64,000 nucleotides of DNA from Tausonia pullulans (taxonomy: Eukaryota > Basidiomycota > Tremellomycetes > Cystofilobasidiales > Mrakiaceae). How positions within the stretch are numbered: position 1 is the first letter of the stretch; the number at the start of each line of letters is the position of its first letter. Positions 11,767 to 45,065 of this stretch are shown one piece after another. The stretch lies in the NCBI GenBank assembly GCA_951802195.1, contig OX637628.1, positions 1,178,001-1,242,000 on the forward strand, given 5' to 3'. The notes below the pieces were generated by a model, which ran no database searches, was not told the origin of the DNA, and saw only the letters and a list, made by a program, of their open reading frames with translations. A program made the translations under genes and the position numbers.

Positions 11767-11841
11767 TACGAGTGACGCGCTCTACCACTGAGCTATCAGG
11801 GCCCAAGCCCCAAGCCAGGTTTGAACTGGCGACCTCATCAT
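11767..11841 (-). tRNA. permuted tRNA-Thr (CGT), copy 1
   Basis: On the minus strand the 3' half (position 38 to acceptor TTGGGGC) comes first, then 4 nt, then the 5' half (GCCCTGA to A37). The base sequence is identical to the copies at 26187 and 44828. A T8 run follows one base after the 5' half. The detailed structure is given under the copy at 44828-44902. No 3' half exists downstream of the 5' half, so it is not an ordinary intron-bearing tRNA. Confidence 0.75.
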
Positions 11842-12193
11842 ATCTGCAGGAGGGTTCATCCCAACACCGACAATCAAGCCGGCGTCGTCAACCCCCCACT
11901 CGAGTCTTCGACACCATCGGCGCCACATCGATCTAAGAACCATCTCCCGATGGATGGCCCGCTTGTTTCTTGACATGGCGCCCGCTAGACATCGGCTTAG
12001 CATCCGCTAGACATCCGCGAGACATCTGCCAGACATCCGTTAGACATCCGCTGCCGCCCTTGTGGCTTCACACGTCGATGAGGGTAGGGGCATAGCCGAC
12101 CGAGACCGCAAGCAAAAGGGAGGGAGAGACCCCGGCACCCGGAGTCCTCCCTCTCTCCCTCTCCCTCCGCAAAAGGAAGGACAGAGGCTGCCT

Positions 12194-12361
12194 CGAAGAT
12201 GGCAGGATTCGAACCTACGCGGCCAAAGGCCAACAGCTGACGATCTCCAGCCTGCTGCCCGTGCCCTCATCACTCCTCGGCGAGAGGGATGATCGAGGGC
12301 CGGGCGGGGCAGGGCGCGGTCGAGTTCGAAACTATCATCGTAACCACTTGATTACATCTCC
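12194..12361 (-). tRNA. tRNA-Ser (CGA) with 86-nt intron, copy 1
   Basis: Same class II cloverleaf as the copy at 44230-44397: acceptor GGAGATG/CATCTTC, anticodon CGA, variable arm GGCC-TTT-GGCC, T loop TTCGAAT. The intron lies between positions 37 and 38. A T4 terminator follows on the minus strand. It lies about 350 bp upstream of the permuted tRNA-Thr on the same strand. Confidence 0.88.
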
Positions 12362-12835
12362 AGAGCGGGTGAACCGGTGATAATGGAGGCTGCCACATAT
12401 GCCAAACAGGTCATCCAACCTAAAAGTCGCTTTATTTTGACACTGGCAGTCGAACACAAGGTGGATGGTAGACAGTGGCCAGATGGCTGGTACTGCTACC
12501 GGCGCCGCCATCGATCCCGGGTGAAAAGCAGTTCAGGGGTGGGGAAGTATGGTTAGACCATAGATCATTAGCCACCGCTCGACATAGCTGGTCATCTTGA
12601 CATGTACTTTTATATCTCCCTTACCCCGCCCCCCTCTTACCTCCTACATCTGTCATCTCCAATCAACGCTCTTTACCATGGACGTTTCACCTTTCTTCTG
12701 GGCCTATGTCCGTACCCATATTTTGCTTTCCTTCCACCTCTTCTTTCATTTTCGCTCTCCCTCTATCTAGCTATGAATCGCCATCTCTCACAGGGTTACC
12801 TCGTTGTTCACGTATCACTCATGACTTAAAAAAAA

Positions 12836-26186: not shown

Positions 26187-26261
26187 TACGAGTGACGCGC
26201 TCTACCACTGAGCTATCAGGGCCCAAGCCCCAAGCCAGGTTTGAACTGGCGACCTCATCAT
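26187..26261 (-). tRNA. permuted tRNA-Thr (CGT), copy 2
   Basis: Sequence identical to the copies at 11767 and 44828: 3' half, 4-nt spacer, 5' half, then a T7 run on the minus strand after one base. The same lack of a downstream 3' half excludes the standard gene order. Confidence 0.75.
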
Positions 26262-26613
26262 ATCTGCAGGAGGGTTCATCCCAACACCGACAATCAAGCC
26301 GGCGTCGTCAACCCCCCACTCGAGTCTTCGACACCATTGGCGCCACATCGATCTAAGAACCACCTCCCGATGGATGGCCCGCTTGTTTCTTGACATGGCG
26401 CCCGCTAGACATCGGCTTAGCATCCGCTAGACATCCGCGAGACATCTGCCAGACATCCGTTAGACATCCGCTGCCGCCCTTGTGGCTTCACACGTCGATG
26501 AGGGTAGGGGCATAGCCGACCGAGACCGCAAGCAAAAGGGAGGGAGAGACCCCGGCACCCGGAGTCCTCCCTCTCTCCCTCTCCCCCCGCAAAAGGAAGG
26601 ACAGAGGCTGCCT

Positions 26614-26781
26614 CGAAGATGGCAGGATTCGAACCTACGCGGCCAAAGGCCAACAGCTGACGATCTCCAGCCTGCTGCCCGTGCCCTCATCACTCCTCGG
26701 CGAGAGGGATGATCGAGGGCCGGGCGGGGCAGGGCGCGGTCGAGTTCGAAACTATCATCGTAACCACTTGATTACATCTCC
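26614..26781 (-). tRNA. tRNA-Ser (CGA) with 86-nt intron, copy 2
   Basis: Identical in all paired positions to copies 1 and 3. A T4 run follows the 3' end on the minus strand. It decodes UCG serine codons. Confidence 0.88.
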
Positions 26782-27571
26782 AGAGCGGGTGAACCGGTGA
26801 TATTGGAAGCTGCCGTGTGTGGGAATTACCATCTCCGGCGCGAAAGGGGAGTCTCCGCTCATCCCGGTGGTTCGACCAACCCCCCCCCCCCCCCTCTCAC
26901 GGCGCCCATCACGCCGTCCGGCCAACCATCCCCAGTGGTTCGACCAACCCCCCCCCCCCCCCCCTCTCACGGCGCCCATCACGCCGTCCGGCCAACCATC
27001 CCCAGTGGTTCGACCAACCCCCCCCCCCCCCCTCTCACGGCGCCCATCACGCCGTCCGGCCAACCATCCCCAGTGGTTCGGCCAACCCTCTTCCCACGGC
27101 GCCTCGCCCGACGTTCTCGCGCTCGGTCATGTCCGCTCTCCCTCTATCTAGCTACAACTCGCTATCTCTCATAGGGTTACCTCGTTCTCCACGTATAACT
27201 CATGACTTAAATACAAAAAAAAAAAAAAAAAACCGCTCTGACACCATCAGCATTCGTCATGGCGCCCCTCTCCAAACTTTCAACTGGAGATCGAGCATGT
27301 AACAAAAGGTGATACTTCTTTGTCCTTCGCATGATAACAAAAGTGAAGCATCGCGGGCTGAAGAGGCTAACGCCAAAGCCCATGTATCGACCAGCGAACG
27401 AAAGGTAGAGAGAGCCCTTCGCTCTCGCGCGCTCTTCCGATCTTCATTTACACCGGGGACGAATGAAAATACTCCTTATCAGAACATACAGAGTAATTCA
27501 AGAGAAGATGGCGGGTAAATGAGAATCTTGGGACGGGAAAGCGCCAGGTCGCTGTGGACGCTCATCGCAAG

Positions 27572-44155: not shown

Positions 44156-44229
44156 GTGGGCTTCCCGGTCCGGTTGGAGCATATGACTCTCCGCAGCCGA
44201 TGCACCCCCATCACCGGTTCACCCGCTCT

Positions 44230-44397
44230 GGAGATGTAATCAAGTGGTTACGATGATAGTTTCGAACTCGACCGCGCCCTGCCCCGCCCGGCCCTCGATC
44301 ATCCCTCTCGCCGAGGAGTGATGAGGGCACGGGCAGCAGGCTGGAGATCGTCAGCTGTTGGCCTTTGGCCGCGTAGGTTCGAATCCTGCCATCTTCG
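44230..44397 (+). tRNA. tRNA-Ser (CGA) with 86-nt intron, copy 3
   Basis: Class II tRNA. Acceptor GGAGATG (44230-44236) pairs with CATCTTC (44390-44396), 7 of 7; discriminator G. D stem ATC/GAT encloses AAGTGGTTAC. Anticodon stem ATAGT/GCTGT (with G-U pairs). Loop TTCGAA then, after the intron 44267-44352, A38; anticodon CGA at 44263-44265. Variable arm GGCC-TTT-GGCC. T arm GTAGG-TTCGAAT-CCTGC. The intron sits between 37 and 38, the standard site, and tRNA-Ser(CGA) often has an intron in fungi. A T4 terminator is at 44417-44420. A- and B-box promoters are good. Confidence 0.9.
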
Positions 44398-44620
44398 AGG
44401 CAGCCTCTGTCCTTCCTTTTGCGGGGGGAGAGGGAGAGAGGGAGAGAGGGAGAGACCCTGGCACCCGGAGTCCTCCCTCCCTTTTGCTTGCTGGCATCAG
44501 GAGTGTGTGGGGGGGGGGGGGGGGGGAACGGTGAGAGGCCGGCGGGAGGAAACATGCCGCGGTCTCGGTCGGCTATGCCCCCACCCTCATCGACGTGTGA
44601 AGCCACCAAAGGCGGCAGCG

Positions 44621-44686: not shown

Positions 44687-44827
44687 GGCGCCATGTCAAG
44701 AAACAAGCGGGCCATCCATCGGGAGGTGGTTCTTAGATCGATGTGGCGCCAATGGTGTCGAAGACTCGAGTGGGGGGTTGACGACGCCGGCTTGATTGTC
44801 GGTGTTGGGATGAACCCTCCTGCAGAT

Positions 44828-44902
44828 ATGATGAGGTCGCCAGTTCAAACCTGGCTTGGGGCTTGGGCCCTGATAGCTCAGTGGTAGAGCGCGTCACTCG
44901 TA
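44828..44902 (+). tRNA. permuted tRNA-Thr (CGT), copy 3
   Basis: 3' half first: A38 (44828), anticodon stem TGATG, variable AGGTC, T arm GCCAG-TTCAAAC-CTGGC, acceptor TTGGGGC (to 44862). Then TTGG. Then the 5' half: acceptor GCCCTGA (from 44867), TA, D arm GCTC-AGTGGTA-GAGC, G26, anticodon stem CGTCA, loop C-T-CGT-A37 (to 44902). Joined at 37/38 the halves pair fully: acceptor 7 of 7, anticodon stem 5 of 5 (loop CTCGTAA, anticodon CGT). B box precedes A box. T7 at 44904-44910 would stop Pol III just past A37. The split is at the normal tRNA intron site, as in the permuted tRNA genes known from red and green microalgae. Maturation would need end joining by tRNA splicing enzymes plus RNase P and tRNase Z cuts in the 4-nt spacer. 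That it is expressed is inference. Confidence 0.78.
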
Positions 44903-44940
44903 GTTTTTTTCTGGCTTTTGGCTTTGGGCTGGGTCCAGAA

Positions 44941-45065
44941 TGGGCGGCGGGCGAGAGTGGGCGGCGGGCGAGAGTGGGCGGCGGGCGAGAGTGGGCGGCG
45001 GGCGAGAGTGGGCGGCGGGCGAGAGTGGGCGGCGGGCGAGAGTGGGCGGCGGACGAGAGTGGGCG
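44941..45065. repeat. 17-nt minisatellite (GGGCGGCGGGCGAGAGT)n
   Basis: Seven to eight units here, about four in copy 2 (26,090-26,155) and about two in copy 1 (11,700-11,735). Late units read GGACGAGAGT. The number change is the main length difference among the three repeat copies on this side. Confidence 0.85.

Follow-up and report, generated by a model that had tools for sequence, protein, structure and literature searches.

Can a tRNA gene whose two halves stand in reversed order be a working gene in a fungus? The question is raised by positions 44828-44902 (+) of a stretch of 64,000 nucleotides (hereafter the window, C9:1178001-1242000) from chromosome 9 of Tausonia pullulans (OX637628.1, abbreviated C9; 1,325,692 bp), where, on one and the same strand, the 3' half of a tRNA-Thr(CGT) comes ahead of the 5' half. 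An earlier note, written from the letters alone, had read these positions as a circularly permuted tRNA-Thr(CGT) gene of a fungus. The host is indeed a fungus, the basidiomycete yeast T. pullulans (order Cystofilobasidiales; assembly gfTauPull1.1), and the reading itself now draws support from ten constrained copies, from terminators close behind A37 and from a further permuted threonine species. The genome searched for this purpose comprised 23,855,473 bases in 21 contigs.

The 3' half occupies 44828..44863 (+), from A38 (44828) to C72 (44862) and the discriminator U73 (44863), and holds the B box. It is followed by the remainder of the spacer, TGG (44864..44866, +), and then by the 5' half (44867..44902, +), which runs from G1 (44867) to A37 (44902), carries the anticodon CGT at 44899-44901 and holds the A box. 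A run of seven T (44904..44910, +), a Pol III-type terminator, starts one base past A37, while the leader ends in GAT (44825..44827, +), whose G at -3 could pair with C32 as an A-I pair. The complete letter order is A38-TGATG-AGGTC-GCCAG-TTCAAAC-CTGGC-TTGGGGC-U73, TGG, GCCCTGA-TA-GCTC-AGTGGTA-GAGC-G-CGTCA-CTCGTA37, G and seven T. What the earlier note had described is found letter for letter: the 3' half precedes the 5' half by 4 nt, now resolved into U73 plus three nucleotides; the B box comes before the A box; the T run begins one base after A37; and the split falls between A37 and A38, at the canonical intron site. Its stems stand as well, with seven acceptor pairs (GCCCTGA with TTGGGGC) of which two are wobble pairs, five anticodon-stem pairs (27-31 CGTCA with 39-43 TGATG) including G28-U42, and an intact T arm (GCCAG/CTGGC).

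Together with the conserved tRNA letters, the two halves make one complete cloverleaf. When they are put back in normal order, ARAGORN calls tRNA-Thr(cgt) for all three sequence variants tried (3/3), and in genomic order it makes no call. Over the whole window, ARAGORN in default mode reports a tRNA-Ala alone, and the Rfam tRNA model at its gathering threshold finds the tRNA-Ala and three intron-containing tRNA-Ser(CGA), passing over the three permuted copies that the window contains. Judged from the letters, the arrangement is that of a single transcription unit, the terminator being absent between the halves and the T stretch following the 5' half. A minisatellite with a unit of about 17 bases (gggcggcgggcgagagt) lies directly downstream of this copy, at window positions 44950-45060; near 11767, the corresponding copy of the repeat contains fewer of these units.

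A search of the genome with the 75-nt sequence (E <= 10) returned ten places, and because all ten match the permuted query over its full length, all are permuted. They are spread over four chromosomes and represent seven distinct loci by their flanks. Besides the 44828 copy, two of them lie in the window, at 26187..26261 (-) and 11767..11841 (-); both are identical to the 44828 copy over 75 nt, and all three window copies are inside one and the same repeat. The copies outside the window start at C9:1028105, C15:389188, C15:255761, C4:640810, C4:629993, C4:493034 and C11:310662. Weak Rfam matches of two permuted loci (L027 and L029) to YrlA, a Y RNA-like family, scored 22-25 bits against a cut-off of 69 and were discarded as chance.

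Across these copies the gene is held nearly constant. Variation is confined to six of the 75 columns: two belong to the T-stem pair 49-65, three to the spacer beyond T73 and one to the D loop, so that the exon columns alone show variation at 3 of 72. The distance from C72 to G1 is 4 nt in 10/10 copies and always begins with T73; the other three spacer letters read TGG, TGC, CCT or AAA. The flanks of the seven distinct loci are unrelated, and strict conservation ends at A38 on one side and A37 on the other. Stem pairing is complete (100% of 105 cells, in five distinct rows), with either G-C or A-U at pair 49-65, depending on the copy; this covariation is weak support, as it is a single event whose score was reached by 51 of 500 shuffles. 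Downstream, a run of four or more T begins 1, 0, 8, 1, 4, 1 and 1 nt after A37 at the seven distinct loci, hence within 0-4 nt at six of them and at 8 nt at the seventh, while the chance that such a run starts 0-5 nt from a random point in the window sequence is 1.2%. A covariance model of tRNAs permuted at 37/38 gave the ten copies 77.5-81.0 bits, whereas the next best of 90 matches from 39 sources reached 27.9; three of the ten copies were included in its training, and two further copies are identical to one of those three.

Several of the copies have a tRNA neighbour. Beside the 44828 copy lies a tRNA-Ser(CGA) in normal order with an 86-nt anticodon-loop intron (44229..44398, +), and normal-order tRNA-Ser(CGA) genes also accompany the other two window copies (26613-26782 and 12193-12362, both -). 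Such an intron-bearing gene is found within 0.5 kb of six of the ten Thr(CGT) copies (the three in the window and those in the fetched stretches L026, L031 and L032), and in the stretches fetched around the other four ARAGORN reported no tRNA-Ser(CGA). The anticodon-loop introns of these genes measure 62-86 nt, and the Ser(CGA)/Thr(CGT) pair seems to travel together. Long introns occur in several T. pullulans tRNAs, including tRNA-Asp(GTC) genes with introns of 46 and 80 nt (L026:343-494; L039:1488-1606, -; L040:1447-1565), and the T stem of a tRNA-Ile(AAT) (L039:2465-2540, -) is seemingly mispaired, GCGGG against CCCTC.

A second species, tRNA-Thr(TGT), is permuted too. It is present at two loci outside the window, C9:854470-854586 (L106:71-187) and C11:569562-569681 (L107:73-192), with the 3' half upstream of the 5' half at both (2/2), a spacer of 45 or 48 nt after T73 and TTTT 9 nt after A37. 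The reordered halves, with correct boundaries, are called tRNA-Thr(tgt), and a covariance model that contains no Thr(TGT) sequence (R1) gives the two loci 46.9 and 46.7 bits, the best non-permuted match reaching 27.9. Between the loci, the halves are identical (0 of 73 columns differ, counting 72 tRNA positions and one leader base), whereas the spacer differs at 9 of 45 columns and has three gap columns (Fisher, 1e-4). Differences also amount to 19 of 195 letters in the 200 columns downstream and 32 of 75 letters in the 80 columns upstream; in the last 20 leader columns, 2 of 19 letters differ and there is one gap. Against normal function of the product speak a weak D arm, a single G where G18-G19 is usual and a U-U mismatch at 4-69.

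The search for a conventional parent, which the earlier note had proposed among its checks, found none within the limits of DNA queries and two patterns for Thr(CGT). A normal-order Thr(CGT) query against the whole genome matched separate halves only, in the same ten permuted places, and a normal-order Thr(TGT) query matched only the two permuted places, as reversed halves. A pattern leading from CTCGTA to the B box gave 19 matches in the genome against 47 in a reversed control; ARAGORN, run on 12 of the 19, placed two within intron-containing tRNA-Asp and reported no tRNA-Thr. For threonine genes without an intron and with anticodon CGT or TGT, a fixed pattern matched 15 times in the genome and 17 times in the control, and Rfam (E <= 1) found no tRNA in the seven of these that looked most tRNA-like by eye. 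The Thr(TGT) pattern matched 27 times and its control 26 times; the 27 include the tRNA-Thr(TGT) of the mitochondrion and two matches that led to the permuted loci, while of the other 24, five fall in scanned stretches (four fetched, one in the window), at none of which a tRNA was reported. These searches, like the scoring of 63 of 897 tRNA candidates in the genome, were not exhaustive and could miss a diverged gene. The idea of a conventional tRNA with a chance repeat was discarded, the halves having been found in reversed order only. A scan of viral and prokaryotic sequence records for the half junction returned 0 matches, a result that says nothing on related fungi.

This inventory bears on decoding. 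The codon ACG can be read by the anticodons CGU or UGU, and both ACG-reading tRNAs, Thr(CGT) and Thr(TGT), appear to come from permuted genes only. If the inventory holds, at least one permuted gene must be functional, which is the strongest functional argument that we have. In four sampled open frames, ACG makes up 25 of 82 threonine codons, a count that possibly includes some intron letters: 9/16 in Ofd1, 7/21 in a part of ClpB, 9/20 in a DUF4604 protein and 0/25 in Hsp110. The Hsp110 open frame (L069:1504-2952) holds neither ACG nor ACA among its 25 threonine codons, which counts against the functional reading; set against the three ACG-using frames, it suggests that codon choice may follow tRNA supply. 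The remaining isoacceptor, Thr(AGT), is encoded in normal order and without intron at 20 places (from 25 matches); it shares with the permuted Thr(CGT) the anticodon stem (CGTCA/TGATG), the variable loop (AGGTC) and U73. Its acceptor and D arm differ from those of the permuted gene, for example in L073 and L078.

We thus regard the loci as functional circularly permuted tRNA-Thr(CGT) genes, processed via the splicing endonuclease, a ligase and a circle, with a probability of roughly 0.82. In the proposed pathway, whose outline the earlier note had given, Pol III would produce a short transcript consisting of a leader, the 3' half (38-73), the 3-nt spacer, the 5' half (1-37) and a U-tail. The anticodon stem would close this precursor, and the tiny spacer loop would cap its acceptor stem. 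The tRNA splicing endonuclease would cut before A38 and after A37, treating leader and trailer like the two ends of an intron, and a Trl1-type ligase would join A37 to A38 into a 75-nt circle, which RNase P and tRNase Z would open at the acceptor end before CCA is added. Transcription, the circular intermediate, the opening in the spacer, charging and translational use of the Thr(CGT) tRNA are all steps that we infer. The genome encodes candidates for the machinery, with two hits to the tRNA_int_endo domain (tRNA splicing endonuclease) and an RNA_lig_T4_1 domain (T4-type tRNA ligase) at 92 bits, and the pathway has precedent in algae according to PMC3978253.

How the endonuclease would recognise its sites is less apparent. 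A BHB formed by the Thr(CGT) leader with the anticodon loop and trailer gained no support, as constrained folds showed real leaders pairing no better than random or shuffled ones at all seven distinct loci (7/7; fractions for real versus random leaders from 0.23 to 0.81). The A-I pair likewise fails as a universal feature of Thr(CGT), with G at -3 at only four of the seven. In the absence of a convincing BHB, the endonuclease would have to rely on the tRNA body, or the ends would be trimmed before ligation. At the Thr(TGT) loci a BHB-like fold can be drawn, in which pairs form between leader AGCAC and trailer GUGCU, between UACA and U34-A37, and between G(-3) and C32. This predicted structure has a 4-bp anticodon-leader helix and an A-I pair, and leaves unpaired the 3 nt after A37 on one side and -2, -1 and A38 on the other. 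It is the unconstrained minimum-energy fold in L107 and lies within 0.1 kcal/mol of the minimum in L106; in these folds the spacer forms a hairpin of its own and a regular D arm is absent. The fold is suggestive only, because equally good energies were reached at the two loci by 8.4% and 12.7% of leaders drawn at random from the genome, and by 3.8% and 7.4% of leaders with shuffled letters.

Among the seven distinct Thr(CGT) loci we found no consistent upstream TATA-like element: a 5-nt A/T run is missing from three of the seven 80-nt upstream stretches and has no fixed place in the other four, so an upstream TATA box was rejected. With the B box standing before the A box in a Pol III gene, this counts against the functional reading. 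As to origin, PMC3978253 describes a model in which an intron-containing gene is duplicated in tandem and the outer halves are then lost, and for the present genes this is plausible, if speculative. The eight letters with which the Thr(TGT) 5' half ends, CACTTGTA, occur again in the leader, six bases ahead of A38, and this second occurrence could be a remnant of an upstream 5' half. That reading is biased, because the locus was met via a pattern requiring CTTGTA there, and part of the CACTTGTA letters are also engaged in the junction fold.

Two other explanations carry some weight. The loci could yield functional tRNAs by another route, with trimming nucleases and a ligase, or halves acting in trans, in place of cleavage in cis by the splicing endonuclease. 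We consider this unlikely, though it draws on real features: the lack of a BHB above random in Thr(CGT), a Thr(CGT) trailer that reaches the T run after just a few nucleotides, which leaves little to pair with the leader, and a Thr(TGT) junction fold that is not beyond chance. What speaks for the endonuclease is that the split lies exactly at 37/38, that the Thr(TGT) fold combines the A-I pair and the 4-bp helix with 3-nt unpaired stretches at both cut sites, and that the yeast enzyme makes contact as well with the mature domain of the tRNA (PMC3978253), which a permuted precursor could form. As for halves in trans, the halves of each locus lie 3-4 nt (CGT) or 45-48 nt (TGT) apart before one T run, an order of letters that does not suggest separate units. 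The loci could instead be dead rearranged copies, pseudogenes or SINE-like tRNA retrocopies, dispersed and duplicated without function. tRNA-derived sequences disperse easily, which makes this conceivable, and it would fit that three of the ten copies share one repeat, that two more are duplicates of each other and that distinct copies carry different flanks. It is nonetheless improbable in our judgement: DNA queries and patterns found no intact parent, the exons are nearly invariant while spacer letters change, the sole stem substitution is compensated, terminators directly follow A37 at unrelated loci, and the second isoacceptor, Thr(TGT), is permuted as well, its identical halves standing amid diverged surroundings.

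The last two explanations are scarcely credible. In a misread tandem array, a normal intron-containing tRNA would contribute its 3' end and the next tRNA in line its 5' end, and arrays in some green algae do present this local order (PMC3978253). At each place in T. pullulans, however, the DNA search found exactly one 3' half and one 5' half; the alignment of the ten copies, which extends 60 nt upstream and 40 nt downstream, shows no second half, A37 has a T run behind it, and nowhere at Thr(CGT) does a 5' half precede a 3' half in one unit. An assembly artefact or algal contamination might be suspected because algae and an archaeon are the other known sources of permuted tRNAs. Against an artefact stand ten copies, distributed over four chromosomes in a chromosome-level HiFi assembly of QV 71.1 (PMC11803393), and against contamination the Ofd1 of the window, which matches basidiomycetes among named relatives, and the Hsp110 of the same genome, whose best named relative is Phaffia rhodozyma at 70%. 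PMC11803393 also gives a BUSCO completeness of only 29.9% against a k-mer completeness of 100% for this assembly, a mismatch that may point to unusual gene structure.

Seen against known cases, the functional permuted genes favoured here are familiar in kind and apparently new in host. The earlier note had given their range as red and green microalgae and an archaeon, to which a chlorarachniophyte nucleomorph and Auxenochlorella have to be added. Table 1 of PMC3978253 comprises 34 permuted genes from six algae and one archaeon, and those of Auxenochlorella were added later (PMC12636532). Closest are the type II genes (37/38) of Cyanidioschyzon merolae, among them Thr(CGT) and Thr(AGT) in Table 1 of PMC3978253, which resemble ours in the reversed halves, the 37/38 split, the single cloverleaf, the T stretch after the 5' half and the Thr(CGT) isoacceptor itself. 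In the same source, however, the C. merolae Thr(CGT) gene has a 31-bp spacer and one copy, whereas T. pullulans, a dikaryan fungus, has U73 plus 3 nt and ten copies. Further differences in T. pullulans are that an upstream TATA-like element was not seen consistently, that BHB pairing in Thr(CGT) does not exceed chance, and that permutation affects Thr(TGT) and spares Thr(AGT). The 37/38 junction, dominant where tabulated, is shared with the prasinophytes Ostreococcus and Micromonas, the nucleomorph of Bigelowiella natans and Auxenochlorella, but their permuted genes belong to photosynthetic lineages only and, among those listed in PMC3978253, mostly specify Ser, Leu, Cys and iMet. The short spacers of B. 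natans (5 bp) are the shortest eukaryotic ones in the table of that source, compared with 3-4 nt in T. pullulans Thr(CGT), U73 excluded or included. Thermofilum pendens, the archaeon, also combines reversed halves with very short spacers (1 and 7 bp), but its junction is at 59/60, with an extra intron at 37/38 and with an archaeal splicing enzyme and promoters. Finally, the split tRNA genes of Nanoarchaeum equitans (PMC4090602) share the 37/38 split and have a pairing of leader and trailer at the junction that recalls the predicted Thr(TGT) fold; their halves are separate transcripts, whereas those of T. pullulans, to judge from the order of letters, lie in one short unit with one terminator.

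The earlier note knew of no fungal precedent, and we too found no permuted fungal tRNA gene in the open-access literature, searched mostly by titles and abstract beginnings. The finding appears to add a new kingdom to a known gene type; the spacer is unusually short here and the copy number high. According to PMC3978253, eukaryotes with 37/38 introns could plausibly have permuted tRNA genes, and most do not. A conserved, multi-copy example in a relative of Phaffia and Mrakia that can be cultured means that the phenomenon reaches the opisthokonts, and that circularisation by Sen and Trl1, Pol III recruitment with the B box first and an origin by tandem duplication can be tested in a fungus. As ARAGORN and Rfam miss all three window copies, fungal tRNA inventories built with order-dependent models may lack whole isoacceptors. 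We lean slightly towards a broader reading, in which T. pullulans, and perhaps its whole order, decodes ACG entirely via permuted genes, so that the fungal Sen/Trl1 machinery would routinely make essential tRNAs from circles, in the case of Thr(CGT) with a 3-nt linker and without a recognisable BHB. If true, permuted genes would be within reach of any eukaryote with 37/38 splicing to evolve and multiply, and would not be an algal and archaeal peculiarity.
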